From positions 1 to 58,267 of the forward strand of contig CANJXH010000002.1 in the NCBI GenBank assembly GCA_947478755.1: a stretch of 58,267 bases of DNA. The letters run 5' to 3'. Source of the DNA: Betaproteobacteria bacterium (lineage in GTDB: Bacteria > Pseudomonadota > Gammaproteobacteria > Burkholderiales > Rhodocyclaceae). The notes beneath the pieces were generated by a model. That model did no database searches, was not told where the DNA came from, and saw only the letters and a list, made by a program, of their open reading frames with translations. The position numbers and the translations under genes were made by a program. Below, piece by piece: positions 30,831-48,935 of the stretch. Positions within the stretch are counted from its first letter, which is position 1. Every line of letters begins with the position of its first letter.

Positions 30831-31244
30831 TTACTGGATGGTGACGCGCTTTGCCTGCACGGCCGCCTTCTTTGGCAAGGTCAGTTCAAGTACGCCATCG
30901 TTGTACTTTGCGCTGGCCTGGCTTTCGTCAATTTCCAGCGCCAACTGGAAGCTGCGCGAGACTTTGCCGAAATAACGTTCCGTCCGGAGCACGCGTTCGC
31001 CTTCCTTCACTTCCTTTTCCTGCTTGCGTTCGGCGGTAATGGTAACGACCGCGCCGTCGATATCAATATGAATGTCTTCTTTCTTCATGCCCGGCAGCTC
31101 GGCATGTACAAGATACGACTTTTCGCTTTCCTGCACATCCACGCGAACTTCGGGAGTCTCTTGGCCGGGGGCGCCGACAACGGGGCGGACAAAAAATCCG
31201 CGGAACAGATCGTCGAGGGGGTCATAGCGTCTAAGGGTGCTCAT
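30831..31244 (-). CDS. Small heat-shock protein, Hsp20/alpha-crystallin family
   Basis: A holdase chaperone of 137 residues with the alpha-crystallin domain at about 40-130. Signatures are VRVDVQESEKSYLVHAELPGMKKEDI and the C-terminal GVLELTLPKK, with an RVTIQ tail that lacks a clear IxI motif. ATG at 31244 has AAGGAG 8 bases upstream. A heat-shock sigma-32-type promoter lies upstream (31305-31332). Divergent from the ECF sigma factor gene. Confidence 0.93.
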   Translation of the reverse strand: MSTLRRYDPLDDLFRGFFVRPVVGAPGQETPEVRVDVQESEKSYLVHAELPGMKKEDIHIDIDGAVVTITAERKQEKEVKEGERVLRTERYFGKVSRSFQLALEIDESQASAKYNDGVLELTLPKKAAVQAKRVTIQ

Positions 31245-31304
31245 GCTGTTCTCCTTGGTAAGGGTTGCTGAATCCGATCGCAGCGTTATTGCTGCATGCA
31301 CTGT

Positions 31305-31406: not shown

Positions 31407-31982
31407 TTGACGGATAACAGCCTTGCCGATGAACTGGGCCACATGCGCCCGCAGATGCTCCGATTTGCGCGCCTGCAATTGCGCAGCGATGCGGCTGCCG
31501 AAGATGCCGTACAGGAGGCGTTGCTGGCTGCGATGGAAGGTGCGGCAAACTTTACAGGCGCCGCCGCCGTAAAGACCTGGGTCTTTTCCATCCTCCGCAA
31601 CAAGATCATTGACGACATTCGCCGCCGCGTGCGGGAACCCGAATTGCGTCCTGCCGATGACGACAGGGACGAATCCGAAGACATGTTTCTGGCTGACGGT
31701 CACTGGGTGGACAAGCCGGCAACATGGAGCGACCCCAATGCCTCGTTGGAACAGCGGCAGTTCTGGGCAGTTTTCGAGGCGTGCCTGGATGGCGTGCCAG
31801 CCAAACCGGGGCGGGTTTTCATGATGAGGGAGTTCCTCGGCTTGTCGACGGAAGAAATTTGTAAGGAATTGGCGATCAGTACGTCTAATTGCTGGGTACT
31901 GCTTCATCGGGCGCGATTGGGCTTGCGGGAATGTCTGTCGTTGCGCTGGTTTGGTGGTTCCGACAGCGTCAGTACGATTTGA
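31407..31982 (+). CDS. ECF-type sigma-70 family RNA polymerase sigma factor
   Basis: A 191-residue alternative sigma factor. Region 2 spans about residues 15-80 (RFARLQLRSDAAAEDAVQEAL, VFSILRNKIIDDIRRR) and region 4 about 130-180 (GLSTEEICKELAISTSNCWVLLHRARLGLRECL), joined by a long acidic linker. The start is TTG at 31407 with AAAGGA upstream. A zinc-finger anti-sigma gene follows after 7 bases. Together they probably control the RiPP cluster next door; the same arrangement, sigma factor then zinc-finger anti-sigma beside DUF692/DUF2063/DoxX genes, is known in Neisseria. Confidence 0.9.
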   Translation: MTDNSLADELGHMRPQMLRFARLQLRSDAAAEDAVQEALLAAMEGAANFTGAAAVKTWVFSILRNKIIDDIRRRVREPELRPADDDRDESEDMFLADGHWVDKPATWSDPNASLEQRQFWAVFEACLDGVPAKPGRVFMMREFLGLSTEEICKELAISTSNCWVLLHRARLGLRECLSLRWFGGSDSVSTI

Positions 31983-31989
31983 GGTCGCC

Positions 31990-32169
31990 ATGTTGAATTG
32001 CAAGGAGTCTGCGCGATTGATGTCCCAGGGGATGGATAGACCCCTGAGCACGCGCGAACGCCTTGGCCTGCGATTTCATCTGCTGATGTGCAGCGGTTGC
32101 CGGAATGTACGGCAACAGATGAGTTTCATTCGTCACGCCTGCCAGTCGTGGATACGGCGCGATGATTGA
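31990..32169 (+). CDS. Small zinc-finger (zf-HC2) anti-sigma factor
   Basis: A 59-residue protein with the zinc-binding anti-sigma motif: NCKESARLMSQGMD at the start, then HLLMCSGCRNVRQQM, giving HxxxCxxC. It starts 7 bases after the sigma gene ends and lacks a membrane helix, so it would hold the sigma factor in the cytoplasm and release it when its zinc site is oxidised or loses metal. ATG at 31990 is preferred because the protein then begins MLNCKES, as in relatives. Confidence 0.85.
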   Translation: MLNCKESARLMSQGMDRPLSTRERLGLRFHLLMCSGCRNVRQQMSFIRHACQSWIRRDD

Positions 32170-32226
32170 TTTGGCCCGGAGAAAGTTCGAAGGGTTTTTT
32201 GCAGGCTAATTTTTTGGAGATTTGAC

Positions 32227-32604
32227 ATGACACAGAAATCGAAGACGCAGAAATCGTTGTTGACCCTGGCTGTCGGTACTGCCTTTGTAGCCACTGCCGC
32301 TTTGGCGCCAATGGCACACGCCGCTGAAAACCCCTTCGGCATGAAAGCACTGAGCAGCGGCTATCAGCTGGCAGAAGCGGACACCAAGGCCGACATGCCT
32401 GCCGATAAGATGAAGGACGGTTCCTGCGGCGGCAAAATGAAGGAGGGTTCTTGCGGCGGCGAAAAGATGAAGGATGGCTCCTGTGGCGGTAAGAAGATGA
32501 AGGATGGCAGCTGCGGCGACAAAAAAGTCGAAAAGAAAAAGGACAGCAAGTGTGGCGAAGGCAAGTGCGGCGCCAACAAGAAGAAGATGGAAGAAGCCAA
32601 GTAA
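32227..32604 (+). CDS. hvfA: HvfA/bufferin-type RiPP metallophore precursor
   Basis: A 125-residue secreted precursor peptide. A signal peptide (about residues 1-33, ending AHA-AE) is followed by the conserved ENPFGMKALSSGYQLAEAD segment, then a Lys/Gly-rich core with exactly six cysteines: C67, C76, C86, C96, C109 and C114. The first four sit in tandem MK(D/E)GSCG repeats; the last two end in KCGEGKCG, the EGKCG motif that the HvfBC enzyme pair converts to oxazolone-thioamide in Haemophilus. GGAG lies 8 bases before the ATG. Established: this family binds copper and is post-translationally modified. Inferred: the SCGG repeats here are also substrates. Confidence 0.9.
   Translation: MTQKSKTQKSLLTLAVGTAFVATAALAPMAHAAENPFGMKALSSGYQLAEADTKADMPADKMKDGSCGGKMKEGSCGGEKMKDGSCGGKKMKDGSCGDKKVEKKKDSKCGEGKCGANKKKMEEAK
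32410..32526 (+). repeat. Four tandem 27-30-bp repeats inside hvfA
   Basis: Four copies of a unit encoding MK(D/E)GSCG(G/D) plus one or two Lys/Glu, in steps of 9, 10, 10 and 10 codons. Third-position differences between units (TCC/TCT/AGC for Ser, TGC/TGT for Cys) show that protein sequence, not DNA, is conserved. Copy number could vary between strains by slippage or recombination. Confidence 0.85.
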
Positions 32605-32626
32605 AAACTGCGTTGCAGCTAGTCGC

Positions 32627-33481
32627 GTGAAAGCTTCTCAGGCATTTGGTGCGGGCCTCGGCTTCAGGCGGGAATTGATTCCCGAACTGAAGGCTGGGGT
32701 ACCGCCTGACATCGGGTTTTTCGAGCTGGCACCGGAAAACTGGGTTGGCATGGGCGGCAGTTCTGCCCGCGACTTGCGTTTCTTTACCGAACGCTATCCC
32801 TTCGTTTGTCACGGTTTGTCGTTGTCGCTGGGAGGGCCGGGCGCGCTTGACGAAGCGCTGTTGCGACGGGTGAAGGGTTTCATGCGCGAGCATGGCATCA
32901 GTCTCTACACGGAGCACCTTTCGTGGTGCTCGGATGACGGGCACTTGTACGACTTGCTGCCCATCCCGTTTACCGGGGATGCAGTGAAGTGGGTCGCGGC
33001 ACGGATCCGGCGGGCGCAGGAAATTCTTGGGCAACGCATCGGCATCGAGAATGCCTCCTACTATGTGGTTCCACCGGGCGGGGAAATGGGTGAGGCGGAA
33101 TTCATTAGTGCAGTGGTTGCCGAGGCGGACTGTCTGCTGCATCTGGACGTCAACAACATTCACGTCAACAGCACCAACCACGGTTACGACCCGATTGCGT
33201 TTCTGGATGCACTGCCTTTGCAGAAGACCTGCTACGTGCATGTTGCTGGACATTATGTCGAGGCGGATGGCTTTCTGGTCGATACCCATGGCGCCGAAGT
33301 GATTGAGCCGGTCTGGGCTTTGCTTGATGCCGCCTACCAGCGTTGCGGACCAGTGACGTCATGCGTCGAGCGGGATTTCAATATTCCGCCGTTGACGGAC
33401 CTCGTTGACGAAGTGAGGCAGGTCGCGACCATCATGGCTCGCCATGCTGCCGTAGCGCAACGAGTGATCGCCGGCTCATGA
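32627..33481 (+). CDS. hvfB: DUF692 multinuclear non-heme iron oxidase (MNIO), HvfB/BufB-type
   Basis: The modifying enzyme of the cluster, 284 residues with a TIM-barrel fold. Candidate iron ligands are seen in VCHGLSLSLG, LYTEHLSWC, IENASYY, LDVNNIHVNS, HVAGHY and DTHGAE, spread as in characterised MNIOs. It would oxidise precursor cysteines to new heterocycles using oxygen. GTG at 32627 is chosen: it is 22 bases after hvfA and gives the conserved AGLGFRREL start, though no strong ribosome site is visible. Its stop overlaps the start of the DUF2063 gene (ATGA). Confidence 0.93.
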   Translation: MKASQAFGAGLGFRRELIPELKAGVPPDIGFFELAPENWVGMGGSSARDLRFFTERYPFVCHGLSLSLGGPGALDEALLRRVKGFMREHGISLYTEHLSWCSDDGHLYDLLPIPFTGDAVKWVAARIRRAQEILGQRIGIENASYYVVPPGGEMGEAEFISAVVAEADCLLHLDVNNIHVNSTNHGYDPIAFLDALPLQKTCYVHVAGHYVEADGFLVDTHGAEVIEPVWALLDAAYQRCGPVTSCVERDFNIPPLTDLVDEVRQVATIMARHAAVAQRVIAGS

Positions 33482-34227
33482 ACGCGCCCTTGCCGTTTCA
33501 GGAATTCCAATTTGCGTTTGCCAGGCATATTCGAGCGCCCGGCCGGGTGCCACGTCCACCGGCAATACCGGCCCGGAGCATGCAGATATACAACGAGCTT
33601 CTCTACAACAATCTGGCCGGGTTTCTTGATGCGTGTTTTCCGATATCGCAAAGGATTCTCGGCGAACGTCGCTGGGGAATGTTATGCAGAAGGTTTTTTT
33701 CCGAATGGCGTTCTCACACACCGTATTTCCGCGAGATCCCGCGTGAGTTTTTGCGTTGGCTGATGGAGAGCCAGCCAACTGTGTCAATGCCCGCCTTCAT
33801 GGTCGACATGCTGCATTACGAATGGGTCGAGCTCGCGGTCGACATCATGGAGGCGCCGACTCCCGAAGGAATCGACGCGGATGGCGACCTGCTCACCGCC
33901 AGGCCGGTTTTGAATCCGGCGTTGATGAATTTGAGCTACGAGTGGCCGGTACACCGTATCAGCCCTGATTACCGTCCGCGAAAGCCAAGGGCAGTGCAAC
34001 TGCTGGTATTTCGTGACCACGACGAAAAGGTGCGCTTCATCAAGCTCAATCCGGTATCGGCGAGGCTGGTCGCATTGCTGCAGCCCGGCTCGATGACTGG
34101 GCGGCAGGCATTGCAACATGTTGCAGGCGAACTTGGGCATGCGGACACAAAAGCCATCATGGCCAGCGGTGCTGCACTGTTGGACAGCCTGCGAAGTGAA
34201 GGCGCTTTACTGGGAGTCATGAGATGA
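33478..34227 (+). CDS. hvfC: DUF2063 (HvfC/BufC) recognition partner of the MNIO
   Basis: A 249-residue partner that binds the precursor and presents it to the MNIO. The N-terminal DUF2063 helical domain (about 5-100: FQFAFARHIRAPG, MQIYNELLYNNLAGFLDACFP) is followed by a winged C-terminal domain (about 150-245, PVSARLVALLQPG). It overlaps both neighbours by four bases (ATGA), so HvfB, HvfC and the DoxX protein should be made in fixed ratio. Confidence 0.92.
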   Translation: MNAPLPFQEFQFAFARHIRAPGRVPRPPAIPARSMQIYNELLYNNLAGFLDACFPISQRILGERRWGMLCRRFFSEWRSHTPYFREIPREFLRWLMESQPTVSMPAFMVDMLHYEWVELAVDIMEAPTPEGIDADGDLLTARPVLNPALMNLSYEWPVHRISPDYRPRKPRAVQLLVFRDHDEKVRFIKLNPVSARLVALLQPGSMTGRQALQHVAGELGHADTKAIMASGAALLDSLRSEGALLGVMR

Positions 34228-34745
34228 GAGACAAAGCCATCGGCTGGATAAATATTTTGCTTAACACGACCAACCACGCCGGTGAGTGGATTGGTTTGCT
34301 CGGCTTGCGTTTGCTGCTGGCGTGGGAGTTCTTTGAGTCGGGTCTCGAAAAGGCCATGGGCGACAACTGGTTCGCTGACATCATGGAACGCTTTCCCTTT
34401 CCCTTCAACCTGATCCCGACTGATGTAAGCTGGCAGATCGCCACTTGGTCAGAACTGATTGGCGGCGTCGCACTGGCGATCGGATTTGCAACGCGCATAT
34501 TCGGCGTCTCGCTGACCGTACTGACGCTGGTGGCAATTGCCAGCGTGCATTGGCCCGAGCACTGGGAGACATGGTCGGACCTGGTCATGGGCTATGTCAT
34601 TACGGACGACGGCCATGGCAATTTCAAGCTCCCGATGTTGTATCTCGGCATGTTGCTGCCACTAATTTTGTCGGGCCCTGGCAAGCTCTCACTCGACGCG
34701 CTGATTGCGCGTTGGGCATTGAGGGGAACCAATGGCTGGCGCTGA
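34224..34745 (+). CDS. DoxX-family membrane protein of the RiPP cluster
   Basis: A 173-residue protein with four helices of the DoxX family. LRLLLAWEFFESGLEKAMG is the family-defining first helix, and conserved Trp and His residues in IASVHWPEHWETWSDL could bind metal. DoxX proteins accompany many HvfA/bufferin clusters; a role in redox or transport is suspected but not established. Its start overlaps hvfC and its end overlaps the next gene by 14 bases. Confidence 0.9.
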   Translation: MRDKAIGWINILLNTTNHAGEWIGLLGLRLLLAWEFFESGLEKAMGDNWFADIMERFPFPFNLIPTDVSWQIATWSELIGGVALAIGFATRIFGVSLTVLTLVAIASVHWPEHWETWSDLVMGYVITDDGHGNFKLPMLYLGMLLPLILSGPGKLSLDALIARWALRGTNGWR

Positions 34746-34932
34746 GAAGGCCGGCACGGCGAACAGTCGCTGCAGTCAGTGCGGTGCAGAGTTTCGCTGC
34801 GGCATAAGTGCCGGCGAGACGACCTGCTGGTGTATGCAATTGCCGGTGTTATCGACAGCCGGGACCGATGCAACGGCTTGTTACTGCCCCGAATGCCTCA
34901 AGTCGAAGTTACCTGCCGCAGCGGCAACATGA
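34732..34932 (+). CDS. Cysteine-rich CWC-family protein
   Basis: A 66-residue protein with eight cysteines (C14, C17, C23, C32, C34, C50, C52, C55) in the CWC pattern: CSQCG, FRCG, CWCMQLP, CYCPECL. Probably binds two metal ions. It overlaps the DoxX gene by 14 bases, so it is the last gene of the RiPP operon, and its 3' end overlaps the convergent nudB gene by 35 bases. CWC proteins are widespread without known function; being here suggests metal handling. Confidence 0.85.
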   Translation: MAGAEKAGTANSRCSQCGAEFRCGISAGETTCWCMQLPVLSTAGTDATACYCPECLKSKLPAAAAT

Positions 34933-35344
34933 GGATGGCGTCGCGGTTGCTCCACGAAAAGCATTCTATTGCAGCTTCGCGAAACGGCAGCCAGCGATAG
35001 GCAATGTGCTCCTCCGGCGCCAGTTGTACCGGCACAGGGGCAGGAATGCACAGGCTGAAAACGTGCTCTTCGTTATGCGTGGTTCCCGGGGCGAATCGCT
35101 CCGGTGTCAAGGTGATGCGAAAGTTGTTGATGATGTTCCATGCGACAAAGTCGCCAGCGGCGGCATCAATTCCGGTTTCTTCGAGCACTTCGCGCTGCGC
35201 CGTATCGCGCAGCGCTTCGCCTTTTTCCATGCTTCCTGTGACGGATTGCCAGTAACCGGGATGCCTGGCACGCTCGATCAACAGAACCTCAAGCGCTGGC
35301 GTATGGATGACGACAAGTACTGAGACCGGTATTTTGTAAGGCAT
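34898..35344 (-). CDS. nudB: Dihydroneopterin triphosphate diphosphatase
   Basis: A Nudix hydrolase of 148 residues that removes pyrophosphate from dihydroneopterin triphosphate in folate synthesis. The Nudix box reads GSMEKGEALRDTAQREVLEE plus TGI, matching Gx5Ex7REUxEExGU. It starts 18 bases downstream of aspS on the same strand, the usual aspS-nudB linkage. Its 3' end overlaps the convergent CWC gene. Confidence 0.93.
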   Translation of the reverse strand: MPYKIPVSVLVVIHTPALEVLLIERARHPGYWQSVTGSMEKGEALRDTAQREVLEETGIDAAAGDFVAWNIINNFRITLTPERFAPGTTHNEEHVFSLCIPAPVPVQLAPEEHIAYRWLPFREAAIECFSWSNRDAILMLPLRQVTST

Positions 35345-48715: not shown

Positions 48716-48935
48716 AAAAATTGACTTGATGAATGGTTATTGGAGCATCGAATTGTATCTTCGCGAGATTTGGGAGCTAGCGAAAGCCGAAAACCAAATA
48801 TTGCCAGCTAATTTGTTGCAACGCGCAATTTATGGATTTTGATTGCAGTCACGCAAATCGTCAGTTTTAGAAAATATCTTCTAATTGGCGGTTTTTCAGA
48901 CATTGTGACTTAATTCACGACACCAAAAAATTTTC
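48716..48935. other. AT-rich gap with a degenerate copy of the small-RNA promoter region
   Basis: No gene fits here. TTGCAACGC at 48816 and GCAGTCAC at 48845 repeat the spacing of the same two blocks at 48936 and 48965, exactly 120 bases apart. After them a TTAGAA/TTCTAA hairpin lies at about 48867-48884. The copy lacks a good -10 box and terminator, so it is probably a decayed duplicate or an upstream regulatory region. Confidence 0.45.

Follow-up and report, generated by a model that had tools for sequence, protein, structure and literature searches.

An HvfA-type operon in a Rhodocyclaceae genome, with a candidate promoter inside its sigma factor gene and a CWC gene at its end

Sigma-controlled operons for HvfA-type peptides are already in print for Neisseria and Haemophilus influenzae, and such an operon is not new in itself. 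In Neisseria meningitidis, the genes NMB2140-NMB2145 are co-transcribed as an operon; among them are a DoxX-type gene, hypothetical genes, rpoE and the gene for the zinc anti-sigma factor MseR. The sigma-E promoter consensus there is GTMAGBWTT, a 12-13 nt spacer and CGTCTAAH (PMC2893595; here and below, the cited papers are drawn on in part). The product linked to this operon is gonophorin (PMC12668002). In H. influenzae, RpoE2 drives doxX/COG3220/DUF2063 genes under HOCl; 284 bp upstream of rpoE2 showed no RpoE2 response, and 865 bp responded weakly, with 95 Miller units versus 3,640 at msrAB (PMC7907618). Formation of 5-thiooxazole on EGKCG-type Cys residues, with copper binding, is the chemistry of the family (PMC12668002; PMC13419390). 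Here we analysed a stretch of 58,267 nucleotides from a betaproteobacterium of the Rhodocyclaceae (contig CANJXH010000002.1 of assembly GCA_947478755.1; the window), which carries an HvfA-type operon headed by an extracytoplasmic function (ECF) sigma factor gene, and within the codons of that gene a candidate promoter for the genes behind it.

Gene content of the operon

Gene families were assigned with NCBIfam and Pfam models at their curated cut-offs. The operon consists of the following genes:

31407..31982, (+) strand: ECF sigma factor, TTG start; TIGR02943, 248.6 bits (cut-off 162.2)
31990..32169, (+) strand: ZAS (zinc-type) anti-sigma factor, 59 aa; NF052368, 78.1 (cut-off 50), and PF13490, 33.5 (cut-off 22.2)
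32227..32604, (+) strand: HvfA precursor, 125 aa; NF050137, 30.7 bits (cut-off 19.5)
32627..33481, (+) strand: HvfB, MNIO enzyme, GTG start; NF003818, 390.5 bits (cut-off 360)
33478..34227, (+) strand: HvfC, partner protein (DUF2063 / NGO1945_C); NF050145, 274.2 bits (cut-off 142)
34224..34745, (+) strand: HvfX, DoxX-family membrane protein; NF050144, 138.4 bits (cut-off 80)
34732..34932, (+) strand: Cys-rich CWC protein, 66 aa, 8 conserved Cys; PF14375, 37.4 bits (cut-off 24), with no NCBIfam match

The original prediction, made from the DNA letters, described seven consecutive genes headed by an ECF sigma and zinc anti-sigma pair, and this description holds, with all seven on one strand, coordinates about as claimed and both regulatory models above cut-off. 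The anti-sigma start at 31990 and the GTG start of the MNIO gene at 32627 are chosen starts, the mechanical open reading frames beginning further upstream. Neighbours overlap from the MNIO gene to the CWC gene, as had been claimed, by 4, 4 and 14 nt; the 22-nt gap between precursor and MNIO gene is consistent with that claim, which began at the MNIO gene. HvfB is related to the solved structure 3BWW (E 1.7e-69) and HvfC to 3DEE (E 2.9e-13). The ten best named relatives of HvfB are from Rhodocyclaceae and other Betaproteobacteria, at 65-74% identity. In a profile search of the 2.63-Mb genome, MNIO (PF05114), CWC and HvfA gave a single match each. The operon is of the HvfA type (oxazolin/captophorin) and ordinary for its family.

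The precursor has the predicted features, namely a signal peptide (judged by eye), an ENPFG segment and six Cys downstream of it. An ENPFG..GYQLA region is followed by a repeat core of four (D/E)GSCG, one DSKCG and one true EGKCG, as read from the sequence. The same layout recurs in the relatives, which have NPF..GYQ(L/V)A, xGxCG repeats and, by eye, a signal peptide, and GSCG repeats like those of the window HvfA are present in many of them (for example L146). The claim that MNIO and DUF2063 proteins modify Cys for copper binding agrees with the literature, which corrects the product to 5-thiooxazole (PMC12668002; PMC13419390).

The anti-sigma factor carries C4, H30, C34 and C37, the residues of MseR at identical positions, and with them the Hx3Cx2C and Cys4 motif (PMC2893595). 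We predict that this ZAS-type, MseR-like protein binds zinc and inhibits its sigma factor.

A candidate promoter within the sigma gene

An ECF sigma-E-type candidate promoter lies within the 3' end of the sigma gene, 100 nt upstream of the anti-sigma start, in codons which we take to be region 4.2:

31861..31889, (+) strand: candidate promoter in sigma codons 152-161, agreeing with 16/17 consensus positions
31861-31869, (+) strand: -35 element GTAAGGAAT, followed by a 12-nt spacer
31882-31889, (+) strand: -10 element CGTCTAAT

The consensus scored here is the Neisseria one, derived independently of the window sigma. Allowing two mismatches, the sole match in the window at 12-13 nt spacing was 31861-31889; another match, at 48860, is spaced by 9 nt. 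Each of two patterns based on the consensus matched once in the whole genome, at 31861-31889. When the patterns were read backwards as controls, the looser one also gave one match, and its result is not significant alone; the control of the second gave none. A third, stricter pattern found two places in 61 genomes of the family: the window site, and another ahead of a BufB-type MNIO gene. A wider regulon was rejected, a second site being absent from the 2.63-Mb genome with either of the two motif patterns.

To assess conservation, we aligned the sigma genes, scored every offset for agreement with the published consensus and compared the scores with those of 200 synonymous recodings that followed the codon use of each gene. 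Loci with the sigma gene first (n = 30, including the window and three loci without an MNIO gene directly behind the sigma, L133, L194 and L219, which we assigned to this set) scored 14.13/17 at the site versus 11.86 recoded (z 9.7), first of 513 offsets. A class-wide set, not used for pattern discovery (38 loci from 36 genomes, one from the same taxonomic order as the window and the rest from other orders, 12 of the loci under the TIGR02943 cut-off), scored 11.89/17 versus 10.53 (z 7.2), first of 507 offsets. None of the 200 recoded sets reached the observed mean, the maxima being 12.67 versus 14.13 (sigma-first) and 10.95 versus 11.89 (class-wide). Sigma-last genes (n = 16) scored 6.94 versus 8.02 recoded (z -3.6), and divergent ones (n = 8) gave z -0.7. 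A site score of at least 11/17 was reached in 30/30 sigma-first, 29/38 class-wide, 0/16 sigma-last and 0/8 divergent loci. Since 32 of the 38 class-wide loci have no MNIO gene nearby, we assign the element to the sigma/anti-sigma pair, not to the copper peptide. The sigma gene comes first with an MNIO gene behind it in two class-wide loci, of which L290 has the site and L279 does not.

Codon choice at the site was also examined. Its Cys codon is TGT in all 30 sigma-first genes, versus a TGT share of 40% over those genes, and this column has the strongest synonymous bias among 87 conserved columns. Wherever the residue is kept in this set, the site Lys is AAG (25/25) and the Glu is GAA (26/26); the remaining five genes have Gln CAG in place of Lys, which is still compatible with GTMAG. 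In the 15 distinct sigma-last genes, the Lys is lost and the Cys codon is TGC in 13.

For loci with another gene order, elements with 12-13 nt spacers were searched upstream of the genes (8 divergent and 18 sigma-last rows, some of them near-duplicates). Among the divergent rows, 7/8 have a 15-16/17 element before the anti-sigma gene or hvfA. Five of the 18 sigma-last rows (L148, L150, L177, L003 and L004, with L004 and L177 identical in sequence) have one of 14-15/17 at 399-425 nt before hvfB, that is, before hvfA. Control stretches from the same loci mostly gave 11-12 and at most 14, except for 16 in one divergent locus.

A tree of the sigma factors, built with the site columns excluded, gave two changes of the site and one of the arrangement. 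The branches separating the site-bearing genes are presumably long enough to have randomised neutral synonymous sites. The conservation of the site supports the embedded promoter well on computational grounds, and its activity is predicted. We consider it likely that these genes represent a branch of ECF sigma factors with their own target promoter in the codons of region 4.2, from which the anti-sigma factor and effectors would be made and the sigma itself would not; the site would be ancestral in the set and lost about twice, and several members of the larger of the clades that lost it have a similar element outside the sigma gene. No earlier description of a promoter inside such a sigma gene was found in the titles and abstract openings of the matches listed, and the word 'promoter' is absent from the main texts of PMC12668002 and PMC12452194; the novelty of the site is not proven, because subscription papers were mostly outside the search.

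Two side observations concern related loci. Buf2-like operons (L184-L192), made up of a six-Cys precursor (by eye), MNIO and DUF2063, stand immediately ahead of CWC-nudB-aspS. In 9/9 of these loci GTAAG...CGTCTAA, spaced by 12-13 nt, is present some 425-560 nt upstream of the MNIO gene, which suggests that they may be under a related ECF sigma. L219 (G468) has sigma, anti-sigma, HvfX and CWC genes at the hsp20/nudB locus and an embedded site of 14/17; HvfB and HvfC were not found there, and it looks like a decaying operon.

The CWC gene and the hsp20/nudB locus

The operon is bordered by two genes on the opposite strand:

30831..31247, (-) strand: hsp20, encoding a small heat-shock protein, divergent, borders the cassette on the left; PF00011, 72.3 bits
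31304..31332, (-) strand: likely heat-shock promoter of hsp20, on the + strand TATTTAGGG ... TTTCAAG; judged by eye
34898..35344, (-) strand: nudB, convergent, right border; NF006961, 184.8 bits (cut-off 103)

The original prediction proposed CWC as a tail gene of MNIO operons and suggested a neighbourhood survey. CWC is indeed the last gene of this operon, but the survey showed that it is not restricted to MNIO operons and usually stands at the hsp20/nudB locus without them. In a sample of 297 genomes of the family, HvfB was above cut-off in 45 and CWC was present in 148 (about 150 matches). Comparison of contig positions by hand placed CWC within 3 kb of HvfB in 11 of the 45. The other 34 had no CWC match beside HvfB in the assembly; some HvfB loci stop at a contig end, where an adjoining CWC would go unseen, and four of the 45 (G522, G551, G565 and G577) were not among the wide reads and have their CWC match on a different contig. 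CWC stands beside a BufB-type MNIO gene in 10 further genomes, to which G334 and G492 add two, which brings the genomes with an MNIO gene near CWC to at least 23 of the 148. The MNIO operons that stand before CWC are of three kinds: HvfA, Buf2-like (L184-L192) and Buf1-like (L193), the Buf labels being given by eye. In a sample of the order (300 genomes), CWC is adjacent in 3 of 49 genomes with HvfB above cut-off, all three from the same family (3/5 within it, 0/44 outside).

We read 70 CWC neighbourhoods wide (22 MNIO-linked, most of them picked for that linkage) and 30 narrow, and scored a neighbourhood as at the locus if at least one of argB, hsp20, nudB and aspS stood beside CWC. This was so for 66 of the 70 wide reads (43 flanked by markers on both sides and 23 on one) and not for four. 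Among the 48 without MNIO, 46 sit at the argB-hsp20/nudB-aspS locus, 36 with markers on both sides. In G361, the sole other sampled genome of the genus, hsp20 is followed after a 131-bp gap by CWC, nudB and aspS, and there is no MNIO match. The cassette from sigma to HvfX stands exactly between hsp20 and CWC in the window, L147, L153, L164 and L165, giving hsp20, cassette, CWC, nudB versus hsp20, CWC, nudB in relatives without the operon. A TTTCAAG / TATAGG pair, presumably a sigma-32-like promoter, recurs by eye before hsp20 in loci with and without the operon, which places the cassette just beyond the hsp20 promoter. On a tree of HvfB, operons at this locus are interspersed with those from other places; its branches are weak and its bootstrap values unsettled, and it favours neither insertion nor loss at the locus.

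The tail position of CWC is therefore mostly explained by its location, with some coupling to MNIO operons possible. CWC is not a defining part of MNIO clusters, and may be a resident protein of metal-binding type that was captured by the cassette and is possibly useful in the same stress. Its 8 Cys and 1 Trp are invariant across 62 sequences. A structural lead was dropped: the AlphaFold model has a mean pLDDT (predicted local distance difference test) of 68.6, and Foldseek against PDB gave no matches at E <= 0.001 and weak ones mostly to PHD fingers. A literature search under Cys_rich_CWC or PF14375 returned nothing, and the only match on the family name concerns tetrachloroethene respiration.

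Other arrangements were seen among the CWC loci. In 20 of the 30 narrow reads no locus gene was found within 1.5 kb; most of these belong to a second CWC subtype. That subtype, seen in L114-L130 and the majority of L024-L053, has a longer spacer after the CWC motif and stands in other contexts, with no MNIO found within 1.5 kb. In L194 (G334), one CWC gene follows sigma-anti-sigma by hsp20 and another stands by nudB, with an opposite-strand Buf1-like MNIO operon between them. In L144 (G345), nudB-aspS come immediately after HvfB-C-X and no CWC was found in between, which shows that CWC can be missing from the junction.

Proposed model and comparison with known systems

We regard the model as a whole as probable: an HvfA-type operon, controlled by an ECF sigma and zinc anti-sigma pair through a promoter within the sigma gene, with a captured CWC gene at its end. 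By homology, HvfBC would oxidise Cys of the Sec-targeted HvfA to 5-thiooxazoles, which would bind copper in the periplasm, and HvfX would assist in the membrane. The cytoplasmic zinc anti-sigma factor would hold the ECF sigma. We infer that metal or oxidant sensing leads to peptide export at this operon, as the original prediction proposed; the released sigma would transcribe anti-sigma-hvfA-B-C-X from the embedded promoter, reading into CWC. Because this candidate promoter falls within the last part of the sigma gene, the released sigma would make the anti-sigma factor and the operon, and not itself. This would result in a negative-feedback loop without positive autoregulation, the sigma presumably depending on a housekeeping promoter in the short stretch between hsp20 and the sigma gene. 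The cassette, at the junction of hsp20 and the resident CWC gene, would have brought CWC under its transcription.

Three alternatives were weighed. The original prediction had called the operon 'HvfA/bufferin-type', and a bufferin precursor (BufA, DUF2282 or Buf2) would fit the alignment of the MNIO with the BufB model at 248 bits. This is, however, under the BufB cut-off of 310, and the same protein is over the HvfB cut-off, as HvfA, HvfC and HvfX are over theirs. The placement of the 32227 gene by hidden Markov model, which the prediction had named as a way to refute it, falls inside the HvfA family (30.7 versus 19.5), and the precursor has no Pfam match, DUF2282 included. We thus rejected the bufferin half of the label and consider a bufferin identity very improbable. 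That the conserved GTAAG...CGTCTAAT reflects another constraint on the sigma gene, such as protein sequence, mRNA structure or codon history, and no promoter, is quite unlikely. The site does belong to the conserved region 4.2, and the recoded mean shows that the amino acids dictate much of the match; but no recoded set reached the observed mean, the element matches a consensus derived elsewhere, and the same element with 12-nt spacing stands upstream of the anti-sigma gene or hvfA when gene order differs. It also seems unlikely, if somewhat less so, that CWC serves the MNIO pathway specifically, for instance by protecting or equipping the maturation enzymes as a small cytoplasmic Cu or Zn protein. 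The genomes with MNIO close by, covering three precursor types by eye, speak for such a role, but the residence of CWC at the hsp20/nudB locus without MNIO, including in the same genus, and its absence from beside most HvfB genes of the family and all of those outside it in the order sample argue against it.

Several points weigh against the model. The Neisseria sigma, late in its operon, is described as autoregulated, and the conserved adenosine that follows the -10 element by six nt in Neisseria is missing at that position here (PMC2893595). The external element of sigma-last loci is often weak, with 6/18 rows having GTAAG at a score of 12-13 and 7/18 nothing convincing. Because the sigma tree has a single arrangement change, the link between gene order and site was rejected as independent evidence; the deep conservation of the site is the independent evidence. 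MNIO-linked CWC genes stand away from the four locus markers in L161 (G248) and L193 (G313), and CWC directly follows sigma-anti-sigma in L133 (G572) and L194 (G334). Modification of the (D/E)GSCG cysteines is conjectural: FonBC accepted A, R and T for the K before Cys, whereas Ser does not figure in the replacements listed in the parts drawn on (PMC12668002). HvfA modification and copper binding at this operon are predicted from its family.

The operon extends the known copper-peptide family to another lineage. An active embedded promoter would explain why such a sigma need not be autoregulated, would make the targets of an ECF pair easier to predict from sequence, and would escape searches limited to intergenic DNA. 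The CWC case shows that gene neighbourhood alone can mislead, as this neighbour is present without the cassette in most of the relatives read.

The window operon shares its core of precursor, MNIO, DUF2063 and DoxX with Buf_EGKCG/oxazolin clusters, whose extra genes are oxidored_molybd and ferric reductase; 'CWC' is absent from the main text of that report (PMC12452194). Like H. influenzae hvfABC-doxX with RpoE2/HrsE, it has the same four biosynthetic genes and ECF sigma control, the anti-sigma factor there being 67 aa; the H. influenzae sigma pair and hvf genes, however, are at separate loci, and the precursor has three AEGKCGEGKCG motifs (PMC7907618; PMC13419390). The H. influenzae sigma barely controls its own upstream region (PMC7907618), which resembles what is proposed for the window sigma. 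The Neisseria rpoE operon (NMB2140-NMB2145 / NGO1948-NGO1943) resembles the window in its DoxX-type gene, ECF sigma and C4/H30/C34/C37 anti-sigma factor, and 3DEE, the structure matched by the window HvfC, is its NGO1945. Unlike the window operon, it has no CWC gene mentioned in the parts of the report drawn on (PMC2893595). Its sigma gene lies near the operon end and its promoter upstream of the whole operon, which makes that sigma autoregulated (PMC2893595), whereas the sigma gene of the window comes first.

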